In this document: one piece after another, positions 2,916 to 23,644 of the stretch
How positions within the stretch are numbered: position 1 is the stretch's first letter
How the letters are laid out: each line of letters begins with the position of its first letter
Program-made: the position numbers and the translations under genes
The notes under the pieces: model-generated
Told to the model about the DNA's origin: nothing
Database searches by the model: none
What the model saw: only the letters and a program-made list of their open reading frames with translations
Virus record (IMG/VR): IMGVR_UViG_3300029914_000132
Location: 1 to 24,673 of that record
Length of the DNA stretch: 24,673 nucleotides
DNA from: a virus
Strand: one strand, 5' to 3'

Positions 2916-3491
2916 ATGGCGATACTCAAAGGCGGCGACAAGGCGGCGGACGTACTCAAGCGCATTGGCGACAAGGCGCGGGGACTGATGCTTTCCGTCG
3001 GATTCTTTGAGGATAGCCCACAATACGACAACGGGCAGACCGTCGCCACGGTGGCCTTTTTGAATGAGTTCGGATCGTCGCCCACGGTTCCCGAGCATGA
3101 AACAACGATTTACAGAAGCATGGGGGAAGACGGCGAGTTCAACAAAAACGGGAAGTTCGTCAAGAAAAGCAAATCGAACTTCGCCACGACTCACCATGTC
3201 GATGCGTATTCGTTCACAATTCCTCCGCGCCCGTTCTTTAGAAACATGATTGCGGAAAAGTCTGGAGAATGGAGCGGACAACTTGCAGCATCAATGAAAA
3301 ACAATGGAAACGACGGGAAAAAGGCTCTTGAAATACAGGGCCAGATTATCGAGCATGAACTTGTGGAATCCATAAACGAGTTCACGACCCCGGGCAACGC
3401 ACCTTCCACGATACGCAGGAAGGGTTTTAATAAGCCACTTGTCGACACTGGCAACATGCTCAACTCGGTAACATCCAAGGTGACAGGCTAA
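2916..3491 (+). CDS. Neck / tail-completion protein (HK97 gp10-like)
   Basis: I place the start at the ATG at 2916, giving 191 residues, because it follows the DUF4054 stop by one base; the open frame reaches back to 2730 but only as overlap with the connector gene. Key family-like features are VGFFEDSPQYDNGQTVATVAF in the first third, IPPRPFFRNMI near residue 105, and the C-terminal pattern NAPSTIRRKGFNKPLVDTGN, which resembles the end of HK97 gp10-like and virion-morphogenesis proteins (a 'T-x-x-R-K-G-x-x-x-P-L-V-D-T-G' arrangement). These proteins seal the neck or complete the tail terminator. Composition becomes AT-richer in its second half. Confidence 0.78.
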   Translation: MAILKGGDKAADVLKRIGDKARGLMLSVGFFEDSPQYDNGQTVATVAFLNEFGSSPTVPEHETTIYRSMGEDGEFNKNGKFVKKSKSNFATTHHVDAYSFTIPPRPFFRNMIAEKSGEWSGQLAASMKNNGNDGKKALEIQGQIIEHELVESINEFTTPGNAPSTIRRKGFNKPLVDTGNMLNSVTSKVTG

Positions 3492-3869
3492 ATGGACTTG
3501 CGCTCGCTCGCCAACCGATCAACCGCCGCGATCAACCCGAATGAGATTGTTTCGGTGTTGATATCGACGGGTTTTACTGTTGGTGCGGGGCAAAAGCAGA
3601 TTCCGACTTACGCCACGCCGGTTGTAGGCCCGGCACAGATACAAGCCCTTGACGACCTGGAATTACGATTGCTGGAAGGTTTGAACCTCCAGGGCTACGT
3701 CAAGGCAATTTTCTTTCGCGGCGTTCTCGCTGGCGTTATTCGCCCCACGGGACAGGGCGGCGACATCGTGAAGACCGCGAACGGGGATACCTGGCTAGTG
3801 GTCAAGATTCTCGAAGGTTGGCCGCTTTGGACGAAGGCAGCTATAGTGCTCCAAAAGGCCGGAACATGA
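3492..3869 (+). CDS. Phage neck/head-tail joining protein, conserved hypothetical
   Basis: A 125-residue protein that begins immediately after the previous stop with no intergenic base. The layout MDLRSLANRSTAAINPN, then a VSVLISTGFTVGAGQKQIPTY stretch, then DLELRLLEGLNLQGYVKAIFF and a final TWLVVKILEGWPLWTKAAI is a recurrent small beta-rich protein in this phage group, usually annotated as hypothetical. Its place between a gp10-like protein and the neck-terminator gene suggests a head-tail joining role; this is inference from position. Its stop overlaps the next start by four bases (ATGA), implying translational coupling. Confidence 0.75.
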   Translation: MDLRSLANRSTAAINPNEIVSVLISTGFTVGAGQKQIPTYATPVVGPAQIQALDDLELRLLEGLNLQGYVKAIFFRGVLAGVIRPTGQGGDIVKTANGDTWLVVKILEGWPLWTKAAIVLQKAGT

Positions 3870-4387
3870 CTGCGCCATACGTCCCGAGCATCGCCGTTGA
3901 CGACGTAATAGACGCCATTGCGGTGGTTATTCTTCCATTCGTTCCGGGCGGCCAGGTCGTGCGCGCCCAAGTCGGAATGGTAGCGTTGCCCCCGGACCCG
4001 TTCGTACTTCTAACCGAACTTGGACAATATCACCTCGATATCCCGTATGAGAATGACGACGCGGACGCCCAAACGTCAACAGTCATCGGGCCAACTCGCA
4101 TTGAAGTTCAAGCCGACTTTTACGGTGCGAATTCCGGGGATTATTGTGAAGCATTTCGCACCGCGTTTCGCTCTATGTGGGGATGCAACCAGTTCCCATC
4201 AAATATTCAGCCGCTTTATACATCGAACGCTATTCAGAACCCGCTGATAACTGGTGAGCAGCAATACGAAACTCGGTGGACTATAACTATTTCCTTGCAG
4301 TACACTCCCACGGTTCTTGTGCCGCAACAGTCGGCAACCGTGATAACCTCAAACGAATTGACACCTGTTGATGTTTTTTATGAGTAA
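3866..4387 (+). CDS. Phage neck terminator protein (gp12-like / LIC_12616 family)
   Basis: The best start is the ATG at 3866, within the ATGA overlap with the preceding gene; this gives 173 residues. The protein shows an N-terminal helix (VDDVIDAIAVVILPF), a central PYENDDADAQTSTVIGPTRI strand region with the QVDFYG-like QADFYG motif, and a late EQQYETRWTITISLQYTP segment. This pattern is typical of the neck-terminator family that caps the tail tube and joins it to the head in small myophages. Its position directly before the sheath gene supports this. The gene is noticeably AT-richer than the sheath gene after it. Confidence 0.78.
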   Translation: MTAPYVPSIAVDDVIDAIAVVILPFVPGGQVVRAQVGMVALPPDPFVLLTELGQYHLDIPYENDDADAQTSTVIGPTRIEVQADFYGANSGDYCEAFRTAFRSMWGCNQFPSNIQPLYTSNAIQNPLITGEQQYETRWTITISLQYTPTVLVPQQSATVITSNELTPVDVFYE

Positions 4388-4417
4388 GATCAAACCTTTT
4401 ACCGTGAGGATACAATA

Positions 4418-6136
4418 ATGACGATCCCGGCTTCAAACATCGTAAGCGTCAACCCGGGGGTTATCGGGGCCGGGGGCGTCCCGCAGGCCCTGAATGGCGT
4501 CATCTTGAGCCAAAGCACCCTTTTGCCCACGGGCGAGGTCATGTCCTTCGTCAGCGCCGAAGCGGTCGGCAGCTTTTTCGGCCAGGCATCGCTGGAATAC
4601 GCGCTCGCCCAGGTGTATTTCCTGGGATTCGACAACTCCACCATCGAGCCCGGAGCGATCTACTTCGCGCCCTTCAATCTCGCGGACCGGGCGGCCTGGA
4701 TCCAGTCCGGAGCCCTGACCGGCATGACCCTGGCACAGCTTCAGGCTGTTTCCGGATCGCTTTCGGTGGTCATGGACGGCTACACGCACACGGCGGCCTC
4801 GATCAACCTCTCCACGGCCTCCAGCTTCACCGACGCGGCCAACAAAATCGCTACGGCTCTGGACGCTACCGAGCCGACCGAGTCCTCGGCCACCGGCTCG
4901 ATTTCCGGAACCACCATGACCATCACCGACCCCGTGACCGGGACTTTTGAGCCCGGCCAGACCATCACCGGGACGGGCGTCACCGCCGGGTCGATCATCG
5001 TCTCTCAGCTCACCAGCACCGAGACGGGCAGCGTCCTTGGCGGGGCCGGAACGTACAAGCTTGCGGCCTCCTCGACGGTAGCAAGCGAGGCCTTGACTGG
5101 AATGGCCACAGCCATATCAGTGTCATGGAACAGCGTCTTGTCCACCTTCGTCATCACCTCGGGAATCGCCGGGACCGCGTCCACCGCTGCTTACCCCACC
5201 GGGACCATCGCGGCCAGCCTCAACCTGACCAGCGCCACCGGCGCGATCCTGTCGCAGGGAGCCGATGCCGACACCCCGGCATCGGCCATGTCCAGCGTCA
5301 TCAAGAACACCCAGAATTGGGTCAGCTTCATGACCGCATGGGAACCGATCATCACCGACAAGGAAAACTTCGCGGTCTGGGTCAACGCCCAAAACCAGCG
5401 GTACTGCTACATATGCTGGGATACGGACGCCCAAGCCATCGTCCAGAACTCCGCGACATGCTTCGGTGCGGTCGCCAACACCCTGGCCTACGACGGCGTG
5501 GTTCCGGTCTACAACACCGCCGACCTGGCCGCGTTCGTCTTGGGGACCATCGCCAGCATCGACTTCTCGCGGACGAATGGCAGGATCACCACGGCCTTCA
5601 AAAGCCAGTCCGGCATGGCCCCGACCTGCACCGATGCCCAGACCGCCGCGAACCTCTTGGCCAACGGCTACAGCTTTTACGGCACTTACGCCACGGCGAA
5701 CGATCAGTTCAACTTCTTCTACAACGGCCACATGAGCGGCAAGTGGAAGTGGATAGACACTTTCGCCGATCAAGTATACCTCAACTCGCAACTCCAGCTT
5801 GCCCAGATGGCACTTCTGACCGTCGTGAAGTCCATTCCCTACAACCAGAAGGGCTACACCATGGTCAGGGCCGCCATGCAGGACACGATCAACCAAATGA
5901 TCAACTTCGGCGGAATTCAGACCGGCATCAATCTGTCCCTCCCCCAGATTTCGCAACTCAACACCCAGGCCGGCGGCGACGTTGCCAACATAGTACAGAA
6001 CGACGGCTACTATCTCCAGGTTCTTGATCCGGGCGCTCAGGTTCGCGGCAACCGTGGAACCCCGATCGTGAACCTCTGGTACACGGACGGCGGCAGTGTC
6101 CAGCAGATCAGCCTGACGTCCATCGACATCCTGTAG
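4418..6136 (+). CDS. Tail sheath protein (DUF3383 family)
   Basis: The 572-residue protein is the contractile sheath subunit. Family features include the N-terminal SNIVSVNPGVIGAGGV segment, YALAQVYFLGFDNST with the following PGAIYFAPF, the ADTPASAMSSV and ENFAVWVN region, KSQSGMAPTCTD, and a C-terminal domain with KGYTMVRAAMQDTINQ. Typical DUF3383 sheaths are about 480-500 residues; the extra length comes from an inserted beta-module at residues 157-228. The start has GAGGA upstream. Tube gene follows after 12 bases, as in all related phages. This gene makes the tail a contractile, myovirus-type tail. Confidence 0.9.
   Translation: MTIPASNIVSVNPGVIGAGGVPQALNGVILSQSTLLPTGEVMSFVSAEAVGSFFGQASLEYALAQVYFLGFDNSTIEPGAIYFAPFNLADRAAWIQSGALTGMTLAQLQAVSGSLSVVMDGYTHTAASINLSTASSFTDAANKIATALDATEPTESSATGSISGTTMTITDPVTGTFEPGQTITGTGVTAGSIIVSQLTSTETGSVLGGAGTYKLAASSTVASEALTGMATAISVSWNSVLSTFVITSGIAGTASTAAYPTGTIAASLNLTSATGAILSQGADADTPASAMSSVIKNTQNWVSFMTAWEPIITDKENFAVWVNAQNQRYCYICWDTDAQAIVQNSATCFGAVANTLAYDGVVPVYNTADLAAFVLGTIASIDFSRTNGRITTAFKSQSGMAPTCTDAQTAANLLANGYSFYGTYATANDQFNFFYNGHMSGKWKWIDTFADQVYLNSQLQLAQMALLTVVKSIPYNQKGYTMVRAAMQDTINQMINFGGIQTGINLSLPQISQLNTQAGGDVANIVQNDGYYLQVLDPGAQVRGNRGTPIVNLWYTDGGSVQQISLTSIDIL
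4886..5101 (+). repeat. GTGV/GGAGTY beta-module inserted in the sheath gene
   Basis: Residues 157-228 of the sheath interrupt an otherwise normal DUF3383 protein with a module that resembles the two copies in the cement protein. Shared features are a GTTMTITDPVTG strand, EPGQTITGTGVTAGSII, and GGAGTYKLA. The DNA is also alike across the core. It probably forms a surface loop domain on the sheath. Confidence 0.7.
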
Positions 6137-19046: not shown

Positions 19047-19625
19047 ATGCTGCGATACATCCACGGAACCGACTATCAACAGTTCGACCATATCCTGTTC
19101 GCCGCCGCCGTCCAGGCGCAGTTCCCCGGAACTCAGGTCAATTCCGAAGGCGATAATGCCGATCTCGGGACGCCGGGTTTCGTGACTGTCGATCTGCCCG
19201 ATGCCGACCAGGCCGCCGTGCTGGCGATCCTGACCAGTGCGCTTCCGGTTGCAATCGCCGCCCAGCAGCTGTCCCAGGCCAAGGCGGCGATGAACGCGGC
19301 GATCATGGCCGGGGCCGACCAGCTCCGGGCGCAGATGATGGCCGACTACTCCGACCTCGAGCAGTCCAGCTTCCCGTATCAACTGGCCGACGCGCAAGCG
19401 TGGACGAAAGACAACACCGCAACGACGCCATGGCTCTCCGCGATGGCGTCCGCCCGGGGAACGACCGTGGCCGTCCTGGCCCCCAAGGTCATCGCCAACG
19501 ACGCGGCCTGGACCGCGCTGGCTGGCAAAATCATCGGCCAGCAGCAAGCATATCAGGACCAAGTCACGGCGGCCACGACAGTTGACGCGGTGAACGCCAT
19601 AAACCCGGCATATCAAACCTCATAG
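19047..19625 (+). CDS. Probable tail fibre assembly protein (DUF4376-like C-terminal part)
   Basis: A 192-residue protein three bases after the lectin gene. The N-terminal 70 residues form a small unknown domain (QQFDHILFAAAVQAQFPGTQ, DLPDADQAAVLAILTSAL). The C-terminal part has the repeating order found in many fibre-assembly-type phage proteins: FPYQLADAQAWTKDNTATTP, then WLSAMASARGTTVAVLAPKV, then AWTALAGKIIGQQQAYQDQV. These proteins usually follow fibre genes and assist fibre folding or remain attached. I am fairly sure of the C-terminal family type, less of its role. Confidence 0.62.
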   Translation: MLRYIHGTDYQQFDHILFAAAVQAQFPGTQVNSEGDNADLGTPGFVTVDLPDADQAAVLAILTSALPVAIAAQQLSQAKAAMNAAIMAGADQLRAQMMADYSDLEQSSFPYQLADAQAWTKDNTATTPWLSAMASARGTTVAVLAPKVIANDAAWTALAGKIIGQQQAYQDQVTAATTVDAVNAINPAYQTS

Positions 19626-19636
19626 GAGCTGCGACC

Positions 19637-19771
19637 ATGACCGACGAACAGAAGGACCGATTGTTTGAGGGACTGACCGAAGCCCAGGCCCAGGAGGTGC
19701 AGACGAAGCTGGACCAGGGAGACGAAATGGGAGCGGAAGACCTGGCCAACAAGTTCAAGCGCGAGGGCTAG
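19637..19771 (+). CDS. Small acidic protein, last gene of the structural operon
   Basis: A 44-codon frame with a clear AGGAG eight bases before its ATG, beginning 11 bases after the fibre-assembly stop. The product is helical and charged (MTDEQKDRLFEGLTEAQAQE near the start, LANKFKREG at the end). No family recognised. The good ribosome site, GC-rich third positions and location before the operon terminator support a real gene. A small virion or lysis-timing accessory role cannot be told apart. Confidence 0.6.
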   Translation: MTDEQKDRLFEGLTEAQAQEVQTKLDQGDEMGAEDLANKFKREG

Positions 19772-19787
19772 GCGTCGTAGTTTAATC

Positions 19788-19834
19788 CCGTCGATTTCGA
19801 CGGCGTTGAACCGTCAAGGATTCCTTGACAGTTC
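19788..19834. repeat. Two tandem inverted repeats upstream of the terminator
   Basis: CCGTCGA (19788-19794) and TCGACGG (19797-19803) form a perfect 7-bp inverted repeat with a 2-base centre. Next, GAACcGTCAAGGA (19808-19820) pairs with TCCTTGACaGTTC (19822-19834): 12 of 13 positions match around one central base. They may be protein-binding palindromes or, in RNA, 3'-end hairpins. Confidence 0.7.
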
Positions 19835-19868
19835 AAGCCCTCTGGTTTTCGGATCAGGGGGCTTTTCT
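19835..19868 (+). terminator. Intrinsic terminator of the rightward structural operon
   Basis: AGCCCTCTG (19836-19844) pairs with CAGGGGGCT (19855-19863), nine pairs with one G-U, around a 10-base loop. TTTT then C T follows directly (19863-19868). It lies after the last rightward gene and just before the 3' end of the convergent methyltransferase gene. The other strand has no U-run after the hairpin, so it should act mainly rightward. Confidence 0.72.
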
Positions 19869-19882
19869 ATTGGTCATGGCGG

Positions 19883-21214
19883 CTACGCGTTGGCCTCCTT
19901 CTCCGGGTACTTCGCCAGGGTGGCGTCCACATTTTGGGCGGCCACTGTTTTGATCCTCTTGCCGATCCAGGCCATGCACGGAACGGCCATTGAATTGCCG
20001 AGCGCCTTGTAGCGCGGTCCGTCCGGGCATTGATCGGCGGGCTTGCCGCGCCAGGGGATTGCGGTGTAGCCGTCAGGAAATCCCTGGAGGCGTTCGCACT
20101 CGACGGGGGTGAGTCGGCGTACCCGGGATGCCACGCCTACGCCGTGCTGCTTCCCGGATTGCAGGGTGTACATGGGGTCTTGGCTGTTGCCGATACCGAT
20201 TCCGGCGCGGATGTCTGTCGTGCTGTTGCCCGTCCGCGCACCCACTTCCAGGAGGGGTACCACAAAAGTCTCGCTCTTAAAGACCATCGGCGTATTGCGC
20301 TCGCTGGCGTTGGCGTTCTGGTTTATGGTGTTGAAGACTTCCCCGGTTCGGACTTCACCGAGTTGGTTCTGCGCGAAGGCCAGGATCGCAGGATAGCCTT
20401 GCCCCGGCTTCCCGCCGCCCTTGTTCAAGGCCCCGGCAGTGTCGTTGGTGGTAATTTCGCCCCGCTGTTTTTCGTGGATGGCCTGAACTACCGCGACCAC
20501 CGGGTCTTGCCCTCGGGTTTCCCCGGCGCGTTCTACGCCCCGGCCGCTTGCTCCAAGGCACGGCGCAACGTCGTGGGTAATGCTTTCCCCCGCTTCTCGG
20601 CTCGGCGCAGTATCCCGGCGCAAGCCTTCGCGCTCAAATAAAATCTCTCTGGGATCGGCCCCGTTTCGAGGACATGCGACAAGGAACACACGGCGGCGTC
20701 GTTGGGCCACGCCGAAATATTGGGCGTCGAGCACCCGCCACGCGATTGCTCTTTCGGGACCAAGCACGAAACCTGCGTCCGTCCACCGGCCCCCTGGCGG
20801 TTGGAGCGCATCATCTTCGCCGGCAAGGAGTCCCAGGAAGCATCCGAAAGCGTTTGTCTTGTCGGAGAGGACGCCAGGGACGTTCTCCCAGACGACGAAT
20901 CCGGGCTGGATCGCATCAGCCAATCCAGCAAAGACAAGCGTGAGGTTGCCACGCGCATCTTCAAGCCCGCGCCTTGCACCGGCAACGCTGAACGCCTGGC
21001 AGGGTGTTCCCCCCACAAGGATGTCGACGATTCCACGATATTCATCCCCCTTGATTTTGGCCATATCGCCCAGGTTTGGGACGGCTGGGTAGTGATGCGC
21101 CAGCACGGCGGCCGGGAATTTCTCTATCTCGGCAAACGCCACCGCGTGAAACCCTAACGGCTCCCACGCCACGGTTGCGGCCTCGATGCCCGAGCAAACG
21201 GACAGATAGCTCAT
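19883..21214 (-). CDS. C5-cytosine DNA methyltransferase (Dcm-type)
   Basis: The 443-residue enzyme transfers a methyl group from S-adenosylmethionine to cytosine C5. Motifs in order: I SVCSGIEAATVAW (5-17), IV GGTPCQAFS with catalytic Cys72, VI ENV (110-112), VIII QRRRRVF (171-177), a target-recognition region of about 180 residues (180-363), IX RRLTPVECERLQGFPDGYT (near 366), X ALGNSMAVP (near 404). All key residues are present, so it should be active; no cognate nuclease is visible. The start overlaps the upstream methyltransferase stop as ATGA. Its last residues (VDATLAKYPEKEANA) copy the tail of the neighbouring, unrelated methyltransferase. Confidence 0.93.
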   Translation of the reverse strand: MSYLSVCSGIEAATVAWEPLGFHAVAFAEIEKFPAAVLAHHYPAVPNLGDMAKIKGDEYRGIVDILVGGTPCQAFSVAGARRGLEDARGNLTLVFAGLADAIQPGFVVWENVPGVLSDKTNAFGCFLGLLAGEDDALQPPGGRWTDAGFVLGPERAIAWRVLDAQYFGVAQRRRRVFLVACPRNGADPREILFEREGLRRDTAPSREAGESITHDVAPCLGASGRGVERAGETRGQDPVVAVVQAIHEKQRGEITTNDTAGALNKGGGKPGQGYPAILAFAQNQLGEVRTGEVFNTINQNANASERNTPMVFKSETFVVPLLEVGARTGNSTTDIRAGIGIGNSQDPMYTLQSGKQHGVGVASRVRRLTPVECERLQGFPDGYTAIPWRGKPADQCPDGPRYKALGNSMAVPCMAWIGKRIKTVAAQNVDATLAKYPEKEANA

Positions 21215-21236
21215 ACATCCTTCTCCGGGTACTTCG
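19897..21236. repeat. 18-bp direct repeat at the 3' ends of both methyltransferase genes
   Basis: CCTTCTCCGGGTACTTCG is identical at 19897-19914 and 21219-21236, with GGCGTC also shared a few bases further on. Read on the coding strand it gives the common KYPEKE/KYPEKD tail. The two copies bracket the whole C5 methyltransferase gene. Confidence 0.8.
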
Positions 21237-22386
21237 TCAGCACGGCGTCAATCTCTCTGACAGCCTGAAGGCGGTTGACGGCTATACCGGCGTAATCCTG
21301 TTCCCGTTCAATGCCCGTAACACTACCCCAACCGGCATTTAACGCGCCTATCATCTCGCTGCCGGAACCGGAGAAGGGAACGAGCATCTTGCCTCCATTT
21401 GCCGGGATAATGAGGCGCGCTAAGTATTCAGTGAGGGTGGTAGGCTTGACGGTGGGGTGATTATTACCGTCACCACGTTCTTTCTTGCTGGCCTTCGCGC
21501 AATAAAAGAAGCGGGAGGCGGAACCGCCGTTATCCCCAGGCCAAACTCCAACCTTGTCAGGTGTGCCTATTGCGGGCGAACCATGTATAGGTGAACCGCC
21601 ACGTAAGCCTATCCGTTGCTTTTTAGGCGGTTGACCGTCAGGAAACCCACTCACAACCTCATCGCTGCCATCGTGGATGATGTTGGCGGGCCAGCGGCCG
21701 GAACGCTGCGGCGTGATATTCCCGTCAGCACCCTCAAACGTTCCAATTTTAGACACGCCCTTGGTTACTTCAGGTAAAATCTCAGTCCCAACCCTACACC
21801 CAGCAATCCACAAAGCCCCGCATCCCCACTTCTGAACATTGTTAGCCACAGTTCCGTCGAGCGGCTTACGGGCTAACACAATAGGTTCATGGGCGGGCTT
21901 TAGGGCTGTATTGTAGCCGTCCCACTGTTTAGCTAGGTCGGACATACCACCAACGCGAACAAGCCTGTTCTTGGTGACATTGTATCCACCGTCACCGTTT
22001 GGGTTCATAAACCCAACACCGGTAGCTGGTTGTGCAGAAAACTCCGTTCCGCTCTCTTTATCCAACGCCTTGCAGACATCGTGAGATTTCGGGAAACCGG
22101 AGCCATAAATCCACTGCAATGAATCCCGTATCTCCCATCCGGCGTCCTCAATCGCGCACACAAGCCGGTGGAACGTCCTGCTTCCACCAAACGCCAGTAA
22201 ATGCGCCCCGGGTCGGCAGACACGCAACACCTCGGCCCAAACATCAACACCCGGTACGCCGTGGTCCCAAGCCTTACCCATGAACTTCAGGCCATAGGGA
22301 GGGTCACACAACACGCCGTGGTAAATATTATCGTCCATGCCCCCCAACACGGTTAGGACATCACCGCAAATGACACGGCTACTCAT
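21211..22386 (-). CDS. N6-adenine/N4-cytosine DNA methyltransferase (beta-type order)
   Basis: The 391-residue protein carries motif IV DPPYG at 28-32 near the N-terminus and the cofactor-binding motif I FSGSG at 338-342 near the C-terminus, the beta-class order of the N6_N4 methyltransferase family. HPTVKP at about 310 is the usual segment before motif I. The middle (AHEPIVLARKPL and a long variable part with GGYNVTKNRL and SGRWPANIIHDGSDEVV) is typical of phage solitary methylases and should hold target recognition. DPPY does not decide between adenine and cytosine. It overlaps both neighbours by four bases, indicating coupled translation with the C5 enzyme. Confidence 0.92.
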   Translation of the reverse strand: MSSRVICGDVLTVLGGMDDNIYHGVLCDPPYGLKFMGKAWDHGVPGVDVWAEVLRVCRPGAHLLAFGGSRTFHRLVCAIEDAGWEIRDSLQWIYGSGFPKSHDVCKALDKESGTEFSAQPATGVGFMNPNGDGGYNVTKNRLVRVGGMSDLAKQWDGYNTALKPAHEPIVLARKPLDGTVANNVQKWGCGALWIAGCRVGTEILPEVTKGVSKIGTFEGADGNITPQRSGRWPANIIHDGSDEVVSGFPDGQPPKKQRIGLRGGSPIHGSPAIGTPDKVGVWPGDNGGSASRFFYCAKASKKERGDGNNHPTVKPTTLTEYLARLIIPANGGKMLVPFSGSGSEMIGALNAGWGSVTGIEREQDYAGIAVNRLQAVREIDAVLTKYPEKDV

Positions 22387-22733
22387 TCCCCACCCCCGTC
22401 TTGCCCCTTTAGGGACACGGCTGACTGAAAAAGCATTTTGAATGTTTCCGCGTCCAAAAACACCTTGGCTGCATCAATAAAATACTCTCCTAAACCCCTT
22501 TCTGATTTATTCTTAGCCTTTGTTTCGTTATTTATTTTACTTAATTGCAGGTTGTATGCGCCCATTCTTTGTTGTAAATTTTGTATTCTTCTCTCCCTTC
22601 CGTAAAAAACATCCGATGGTTCATACCTATTCAATGTCTTTGAACGCACCTTGGCGGCAATATGTTCATCTTTTGCCTTATGAAGCGCCACCAGCGTTTC
22701 ATTCCTTTTCTGCAAGATTTCTTCTCTTTTCAT
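22383..22733 (-). CDS. Coiled-coil small protein of unknown function
   Basis: A 116-residue charged protein, helical throughout: REEILQKRNETLVALHKAKD and RERRIQNLQQRMGAYNLQL are heptad-like segments, followed by a compact C-terminal helix pair (EYFIDAAKVFLDAETFKMLF). No enzymatic motif. The coding DNA is clearly AT-richer than the methyltransferases it is coupled to by ATGA overlaps at both ends, a sign of separate origin. Helix-rich small phage proteins of this kind are found near recombination or modification genes, but I do not recognise a family. Confidence 0.75.
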   Translation of the reverse strand: MKREEILQKRNETLVALHKAKDEHIAAKVRSKTLNRYEPSDVFYGRERRIQNLQQRMGAYNLQLSKINNETKAKNKSERGLGEYFIDAAKVFLDAETFKMLFQSAVSLKGQDGGGE

Positions 22734-23157: not shown

Positions 23158-23644
23158 GAGCATGGGGAGGGGCGTCCGAAGGCGCTAAATACTACCCGTC
23201 CCCGGACCCGTCCCCGTCCAGGCTGGCCCCGGACAGGTTGGCCCCGTCCAGGCTGGCCCTGGTCAGGTCGGCCCCGGTCAGGTCGGCCCTGGTCAGGTTG
23301 GCCCCGTTCAGGCTGGCCCCGGTCAGGTCGGCCCTGGTCAGGTTGGCCTCGGTCAGGTTGGCCCTGTACAGGTTGGCCCCGTACAGGCTGGCCCCGGTCA
23401 GGTCGGCCCTGGTCAGGTTGGCATCGTACAGGCTGGCATTGTACAGGTTAGCCCCGGTCAGGTTAGCCCCGGACAGGTATGCCCCGGTCAGGTTAGCCCC
23501 GGACAGGTTGGCCCTGGTAAGTTTTCGCATTGCTCAATCTCCTTTGTTGGGCCTAGTGGTGGATGGATCGCATCGGCCCGTCACCGTGCTTATGTGCCCC
23601 TTGGGGTCATGGGTTCACCCTGAGTATGGAGGGGCGTCCGAAGG
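23158..23644. repeat. 17-bp direct repeat at two gene ends
   Basis: GGAGGGGCGTCCGAAGG occurs at 23166-23182, just beyond the pentapeptide gene stop, and at 23628-23644, inside the last codons of the C2H2 gene. Similarity extends leftward (GAGCATGG / GAGTATGG) with a 2-base gap. Confidence 0.65.
23192..23530 (-). CDS. Pentapeptide-repeat protein (20 perfect units)
   Basis: The 112-residue protein is an unbroken run of 20 pentapeptides of the form A-(N/D/S/Y)-L-x-x at residues 7-106, preceded by MRKLTR and followed by DGSGDG. Pentapeptide-repeat proteins fold as a right-handed quadrilateral beta-helix; 20 units give about five coils. Some members (MfpA, Qnr) mimic DNA and inhibit or protect gyrase, others have unknown roles. 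This one lacks the usual Phe at the central position, keeping Leu in every unit, and has no cap domain. The start has AAGGAG eight bases upstream. It is not overlapped with neighbours, so it may be translated independently. Its role here, perhaps protection from a DNA-binding host enzyme, is inference. Confidence 0.88.
   Translation of the reverse strand: MRKLTRANLSGANLTGAYLSGANLTGANLYNASLYDANLTRADLTGASLYGANLYRANLTEANLTRADLTGASLNGANLTRADLTGADLTRASLDGANLSGASLDGDGSGDG

Follow-up and report, generated by a model that had tools for sequence, protein, structure and literature searches.

Two DNA methyltransferase genes stand next to each other on the minus strand of a viral genome fragment (IMG/VR record IMGVR_UViG_3300029914_000132; the whole stretch analysed, 24,673 bases, is called the window here), and the two enzymes, which belong to unrelated families, end in the same residues. 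Does this common tail represent a peptide kept for its function, or a piece of DNA copied from one gene end to another? The upstream gene (21211..22386, minus strand) encodes an N6/N4-type enzyme of 391 aa, which matches PF01555 (E=1.2e-09) and phrog_67 and carries the DPPY motif with D28, P29, P30 and Y31 invariant. Its neighbour (19883..21214, minus strand) encodes a C5 cytosine methyltransferase of 443 aa, which matches phrog_116 and, across the full domain and with the conserved motifs present, PF00145 (E=8.1e-44). The start of the C5 gene overlaps the stop of the N6/N4 gene by four bases (ATGA). The C5 protein ends in ...VDATLAKYPEKEANA and the N6/N4 protein in ...IDAVLTKYPEKDV, each followed by the stop. 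The Pfam matches finish at residue 422 of 443 in the C5 enzyme and at residue 370 of 391 in the N6/N4 enzyme; therefore both tails lie beyond the catalytic domains, as had been proposed from the position of the last catalytic motifs. The composition of the C5 gene is unlike that of the genes upstream of it, with a GC3 of 0.71 against 0.57 for the N6/N4 gene and 0.41 for the gene at 22383-22733. Elsewhere in the window, an open reading frame of pentapeptide-like repeats (ANLTGADLTRA...) is present at 23192-23530 on the minus strand.

The common tail is encoded by a direct repeat that lies within the last 45 bases of both genes, with 28 of 32 bases identical (88%) and the copies 1322 bases apart. 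Copy 1 (21218..21249, minus strand) is contained in the last 13 codons of the N6/N4 gene. Copy 2 (19896..19927, minus strand), at the end of the C5 gene, encodes DATLAKYPEK and runs on to one base of the next-but-one codon. The longest exact run common to both, CGAAGTACCCGGAGAAGGA on the minus strand, has 19 bases and not the 18 that had been counted. When up to three mismatches were allowed, two matches were obtained in the window and none in 100 dinucleotide-preserving shuffles, which confirms the claim of the initial annotation that two unrelated methyltransferases have the same C-terminal tail. A third copy was looked for throughout the 24,673-base window, and none was found. The copies differ at four of the 32 bases, and every differing codon alters its residue. 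Since one copy is the 3' end of the N6/N4 gene and the other falls within the C5 gene at its 3' end, the two bracket the C5 body (19928-21217). The repeats had been described as flanking the C5 gene precisely; this holds for its body, but the copies are not outside the gene on both sides, as copy 2 is part of its 3' end. By analogy with loci of other phages (L096 and L332 against L339, see below), the segment bounded by both copies, 19928..21217 on the minus strand, would be the inserted one. It consists of the C5 body minus the C5 tail, preceded by the final two codons and the stop codon of the N6/N4 gene.

We consider that the C5 gene probably entered by recombination at the 3' end of the N6/N4 gene, an event in which about 32 bases of that gene end were duplicated. 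The C5 gene appears the likelier newcomer of the two, because the repeat brackets C5 and no copy is present ahead of the N6/N4 gene. The gain is also favoured by the composition of the C5 gene, given above, and by its tail, which beyond residue 422 is long for the family (21 residues, against a median of 8 in the C5 homologues, of which 5% are as long), the N6/N4 tail being of ordinary length. Phage genes overlap tightly, and a newcomer can therefore fit between two others only if their junction is kept or duplicated. Such recombination at the end of the N6/N4 gene would have brought in the C5 gene, which then had a copy of that gene end on either side. Copy 1 would keep the N6/N4 end working and would also give the C5 gene a Shine-Dalgarno-like stretch and the 4-base overlap. 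The C5 body would be fused in frame to copy 2, the C5 gene borrowing the former tail and stop context of the N6/N4 gene, whose ancestral product may have ended in KYPEKEANA followed by the stop. Homologous or annealing recombination by phage or host, acting at the short gene-end repeat, was the probable agent, and illegitimate exchange or the integration of a circular intermediate might also have been responsible. The same repeats could later allow the loss of the C5 gene by homologous recombination. The initial annotation had favoured such a cassette-type gain at a recombination seam. The nucleotide duplication that brackets C5 only is in its favour, as are parallels in other phages, one with filled and empty sites and one with swapped methyltransferases and gene order, but the gain is not proven for this phage.

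An empty-site relative of this phage was looked for in IMG/VR and was not found, nor was any relative of the region with or without the C5 gene, and the window was the only IMG/VR contig in which the repeat was found. A search with the baseplate protein returned four contigs of about 98.7% identity (L245-L248), which belong to the same species and all end before the methyltransferase region. The more distant relatives (24 records) included two with distant C5 relatives and two whose N6 matches were only weak and partial. Homologues of the upstream 116-aa gene (22383-22733) and of the 192-aa gene at 19047-19625 were also sought in IMG/VR, and none was found. Megablast of the whole window against phages gave two short local matches only.

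Similar scars were found around other phage methyltransferase genes. In L096 (also in L331-L333), an N6/N4 methyltransferase gene lies between putative terS and terL genes, named from position and sequence, and the terS/terL overlap of 37-40 bases is present on both sides; therefore the first residues of the enzyme copy the TerL N-terminus and its last are the TerS tail, GLPAKP. In L332 the N6 methyltransferase gene, between terS and terL, has a junction copy on each side, and the period is 1207 bases. In L339 and L340, relatives with TerL at 81% identity, terS and terL overlap directly, with a single junction copy and no methyltransferase. The left flanks of L332 and L339 agree at 82 of 90 positions, the filled and empty sites correspond up to the end of copy 1, and the right flanks match from copy 2 onward. 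Filled and empty sites at the terS/terL overlap were thus both observed (L096 3435-4679, L332, L339).

A second parallel involves the exchange of enzymes. In L390 (the L150 record; 3300-5000), a repeat of 45-55 bases with a CNRNHRAD tail follows a 126-aa gene, a C5 gene and an N6-type methyltransferase gene in turn. The related L391 (3300-5400) has the same 126-aa gene, and there the tandem repeat follows this gene, a different N6-type gene and a C5 gene 75% identical to that of L390, the last repeat preceding another gene. In L391, CNRNHRADGDC and one to three further residues form the end of both the N6-type and the C5 enzyme, and in this L391 is a close parallel of the window, with a common tail on an N6-type and a C5 enzyme. 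In addition, L018 has two methyltransferases, one a D12-type adenine enzyme and one a C5 enzyme, that both end in IQNSLF, and their similarity continues past the stop codon. Some repeats were seen at other genes. In L158 (1025-1470), adjacent 115- and 142-aa genes both end in EEASRER, with a 27-base repeat that includes the stop; the 142-aa gene has no Pfam match, and the pair are not methyltransferases as far as seen. A gene-start repeat (ATGAANACAGACACNCCGAGAACA) is present at three successive small genes in L127 (3810-4850). In L252 (1530-3332), a full gene is followed in tandem by a fragment of its 3' end (86 aa), with 44 identical bases where they join, and the end of the fragment resembles the tail sheath protein of the window.

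The fetched loci were surveyed for direct repeats between the end of each gene and that of the upstream gene, with a simple gene caller; a local alignment score of 14 or more was required, and matches scoring 13 or less were excluded as possibly convergent start or stop signals. Of 155 methyltransferase genes, 8 had a gene-end repeat, as did 11 of the 1623 others (Fisher p=9e-5), in counts that are small and in a survey that is post hoc, the hypothesis having been formed on the same data. Without the window and one pair of homologous neighbours, the methyltransferase count was 6/153 (p=0.002). When hits were counted by locus and L069, with its promoter-like site, was removed, it was 4/151 (p=0.02). 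L145 was left out, as its two neighbours are both methyltransferases and their similarity may be homology, and L069 was kept in the survey, marked as possibly regulatory. The gene caller missed L096 and L110, both of which would raise the methyltransferase count. A wider reading, which we put forward tentatively and would not expect to hold, is that phage methyltransferase genes are preferentially exchanged as cassettes via gene-end or junction repeats (15-55 bp) that preserve both neighbours. The L390/L391 loci might then be a reusable array for swapping methyltransferases, a phage counterpart of gene cassettes for changing the methylation pattern, and the window a two-copy, ageing example.

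It is also possible, if unlikely, that no cassette-like gain occurred, and that the present arrangement arose by local gene conversion, or by the N6/N4 gene being duplicated in tandem and the body of its second copy then replaced by C5. The end product would be the same, the upstream gene's tail on an unrelated body, and this phage has no known empty site. However, more steps are required, and in the L096 family the duplicated stretch sits at the junction and both neighbour genes are intact.

Also unlikely, and slightly less probable, is a regulatory role, in which the repeat would be a translation-start element copied ahead of genes, similar to what cluster K mycobacteriophages have in their start-associated sequences, with the peptide similarity as a by-product. 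Copy 1 does include a Shine-Dalgarno-like stretch, GGAGAAGGA, immediately ahead of the C5 start codon as read from the sequence, and among the parallels there are junctions that carry start signals (L110, L122) and one case with a promoter-like TTGACA (L069). On the other hand, only two copies are present in 24.7 kb, copy 2 has no suitably spaced gene start after it, and the similarity reaches upstream into GACGCC...CTG, past any start signal.

A common docking peptide for one partner had been offered as the other explanation of the tail. We regard a functional peptide, serving for docking or degradation and kept by convergence or selection since a single partner binds it, as highly improbable. 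The same residues do stand at both C-termini, in the correct frame and beyond the catalytic domain, and AlphaFold, with shallow alignments, places both tails as low-confidence extensions of the C-terminal helix. However, homologues of both families, gathered from IMG/VR and prokaryote genomes with near duplicates removed, do not share this feature: no KYPEK-like tail was found among about 118 C5 and 74 N6/N4 homologue tails. A scan of IMG/VR with the degenerate pattern DAxLxKYPEK matched only two unrelated proteins, apparently by chance, so that methyltransferases ending in KYPEK, which had been suggested as something to look for in related phages, did not come to light. All eight residues common to the two tails are encoded by identical codons, for which P is about 5e-4 if codons are independent, given the codon usage of both genes. 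Moreover, the two genes seldom occur together in related loci (10 loci with both), and the analogous common tails of other phages have sequences unlike that of the window. The absence of the tail from homologues, the unrelated pattern matches and the identical codons indicate that the common tail is a recent local DNA duplication and not a docking peptide. Chance similarity between two GC-rich gene ends is scarcely credible. Short matches do arise between unrelated pairs (37 of 10609 mismatched pairs from different loci score at least 14, some of them from related loci), but the window pair, with 19 exact bases, scores 22 and has no equal in shuffles.

The proposed gain of the C5 gene with duplication of the N6/N4 gene end has consequences for the interpretation of other phage genomes. 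Unrelated adjoining phage proteins can have a common tail without any functional link, and caution is needed with docking-peptide readings. If the methyltransferase enrichment holds in an independent sample, gene-end repeats would be a simple sequence signature of recent methyltransferase gain in phages, and would mark a route to an altered anti-restriction repertoire that does not break tightly packed, overlapping genes.

Nothing direct was found in the literature on methyltransferase cassettes flanked by repeats, but several known systems resemble the window, two of them only in part. In T4-type phages, the mobile regulatory cassettes known as PeSLs occur in many copies, each a promoter/stem-loop element (Arbiol et al. 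2010 and Comeau et al. 2014, as cited in PMC4503421). As described there, they also involve repeats at gene boundaries that mediate the shuffling of gene modules; in contrast, the window has two copies inside coding ends with neither promoter nor stem-loop at the repeat, and it was not assigned to this group. Neither copy has a terminator-like stem, and 19600-21400 was found to be free of promoter-like sites. Start-associated sequences precede many genes of one cluster K genome (PMC3203893) and, like copy 1, are short repeats with a translation-start signal beside phage genes. The window was not placed with them either, as it has two copies only, one of which is not ahead of a gene start. The closest system is that of the cluster I mycobacteriophages Island3 and Brujita (Pope et al. 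2011, PMC3029335). The 60-bp 3' end of Island3 gene 68, with its 18 C-terminal residues, is common to the unrelated upstream neighbour, Brujita lacks the inserted gene and has a single recombinant copy of the repeat, and gene gain or loss was explained by recombination between gene-end repeats. There, the genome that has the gene and the one that lacks it are almost the same, and the insert is small and lacks homologues. In the window the insert would be a C5 methyltransferase, its repeat has less length (32 bp, 88%), and a sister with an empty site was not found; a single copy without the gene, as in Brujita, is present at the analogous L339 locus. In both systems the inserted gene and an unrelated upstream gene have a 3'-end DNA repeat and the same C-terminal residues in common, and in the window this similarity is at the nucleotide level. 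By its anatomy, the window appears to be a further case of the Island3/Brujita kind of insertion, the mechanism of which is already published.
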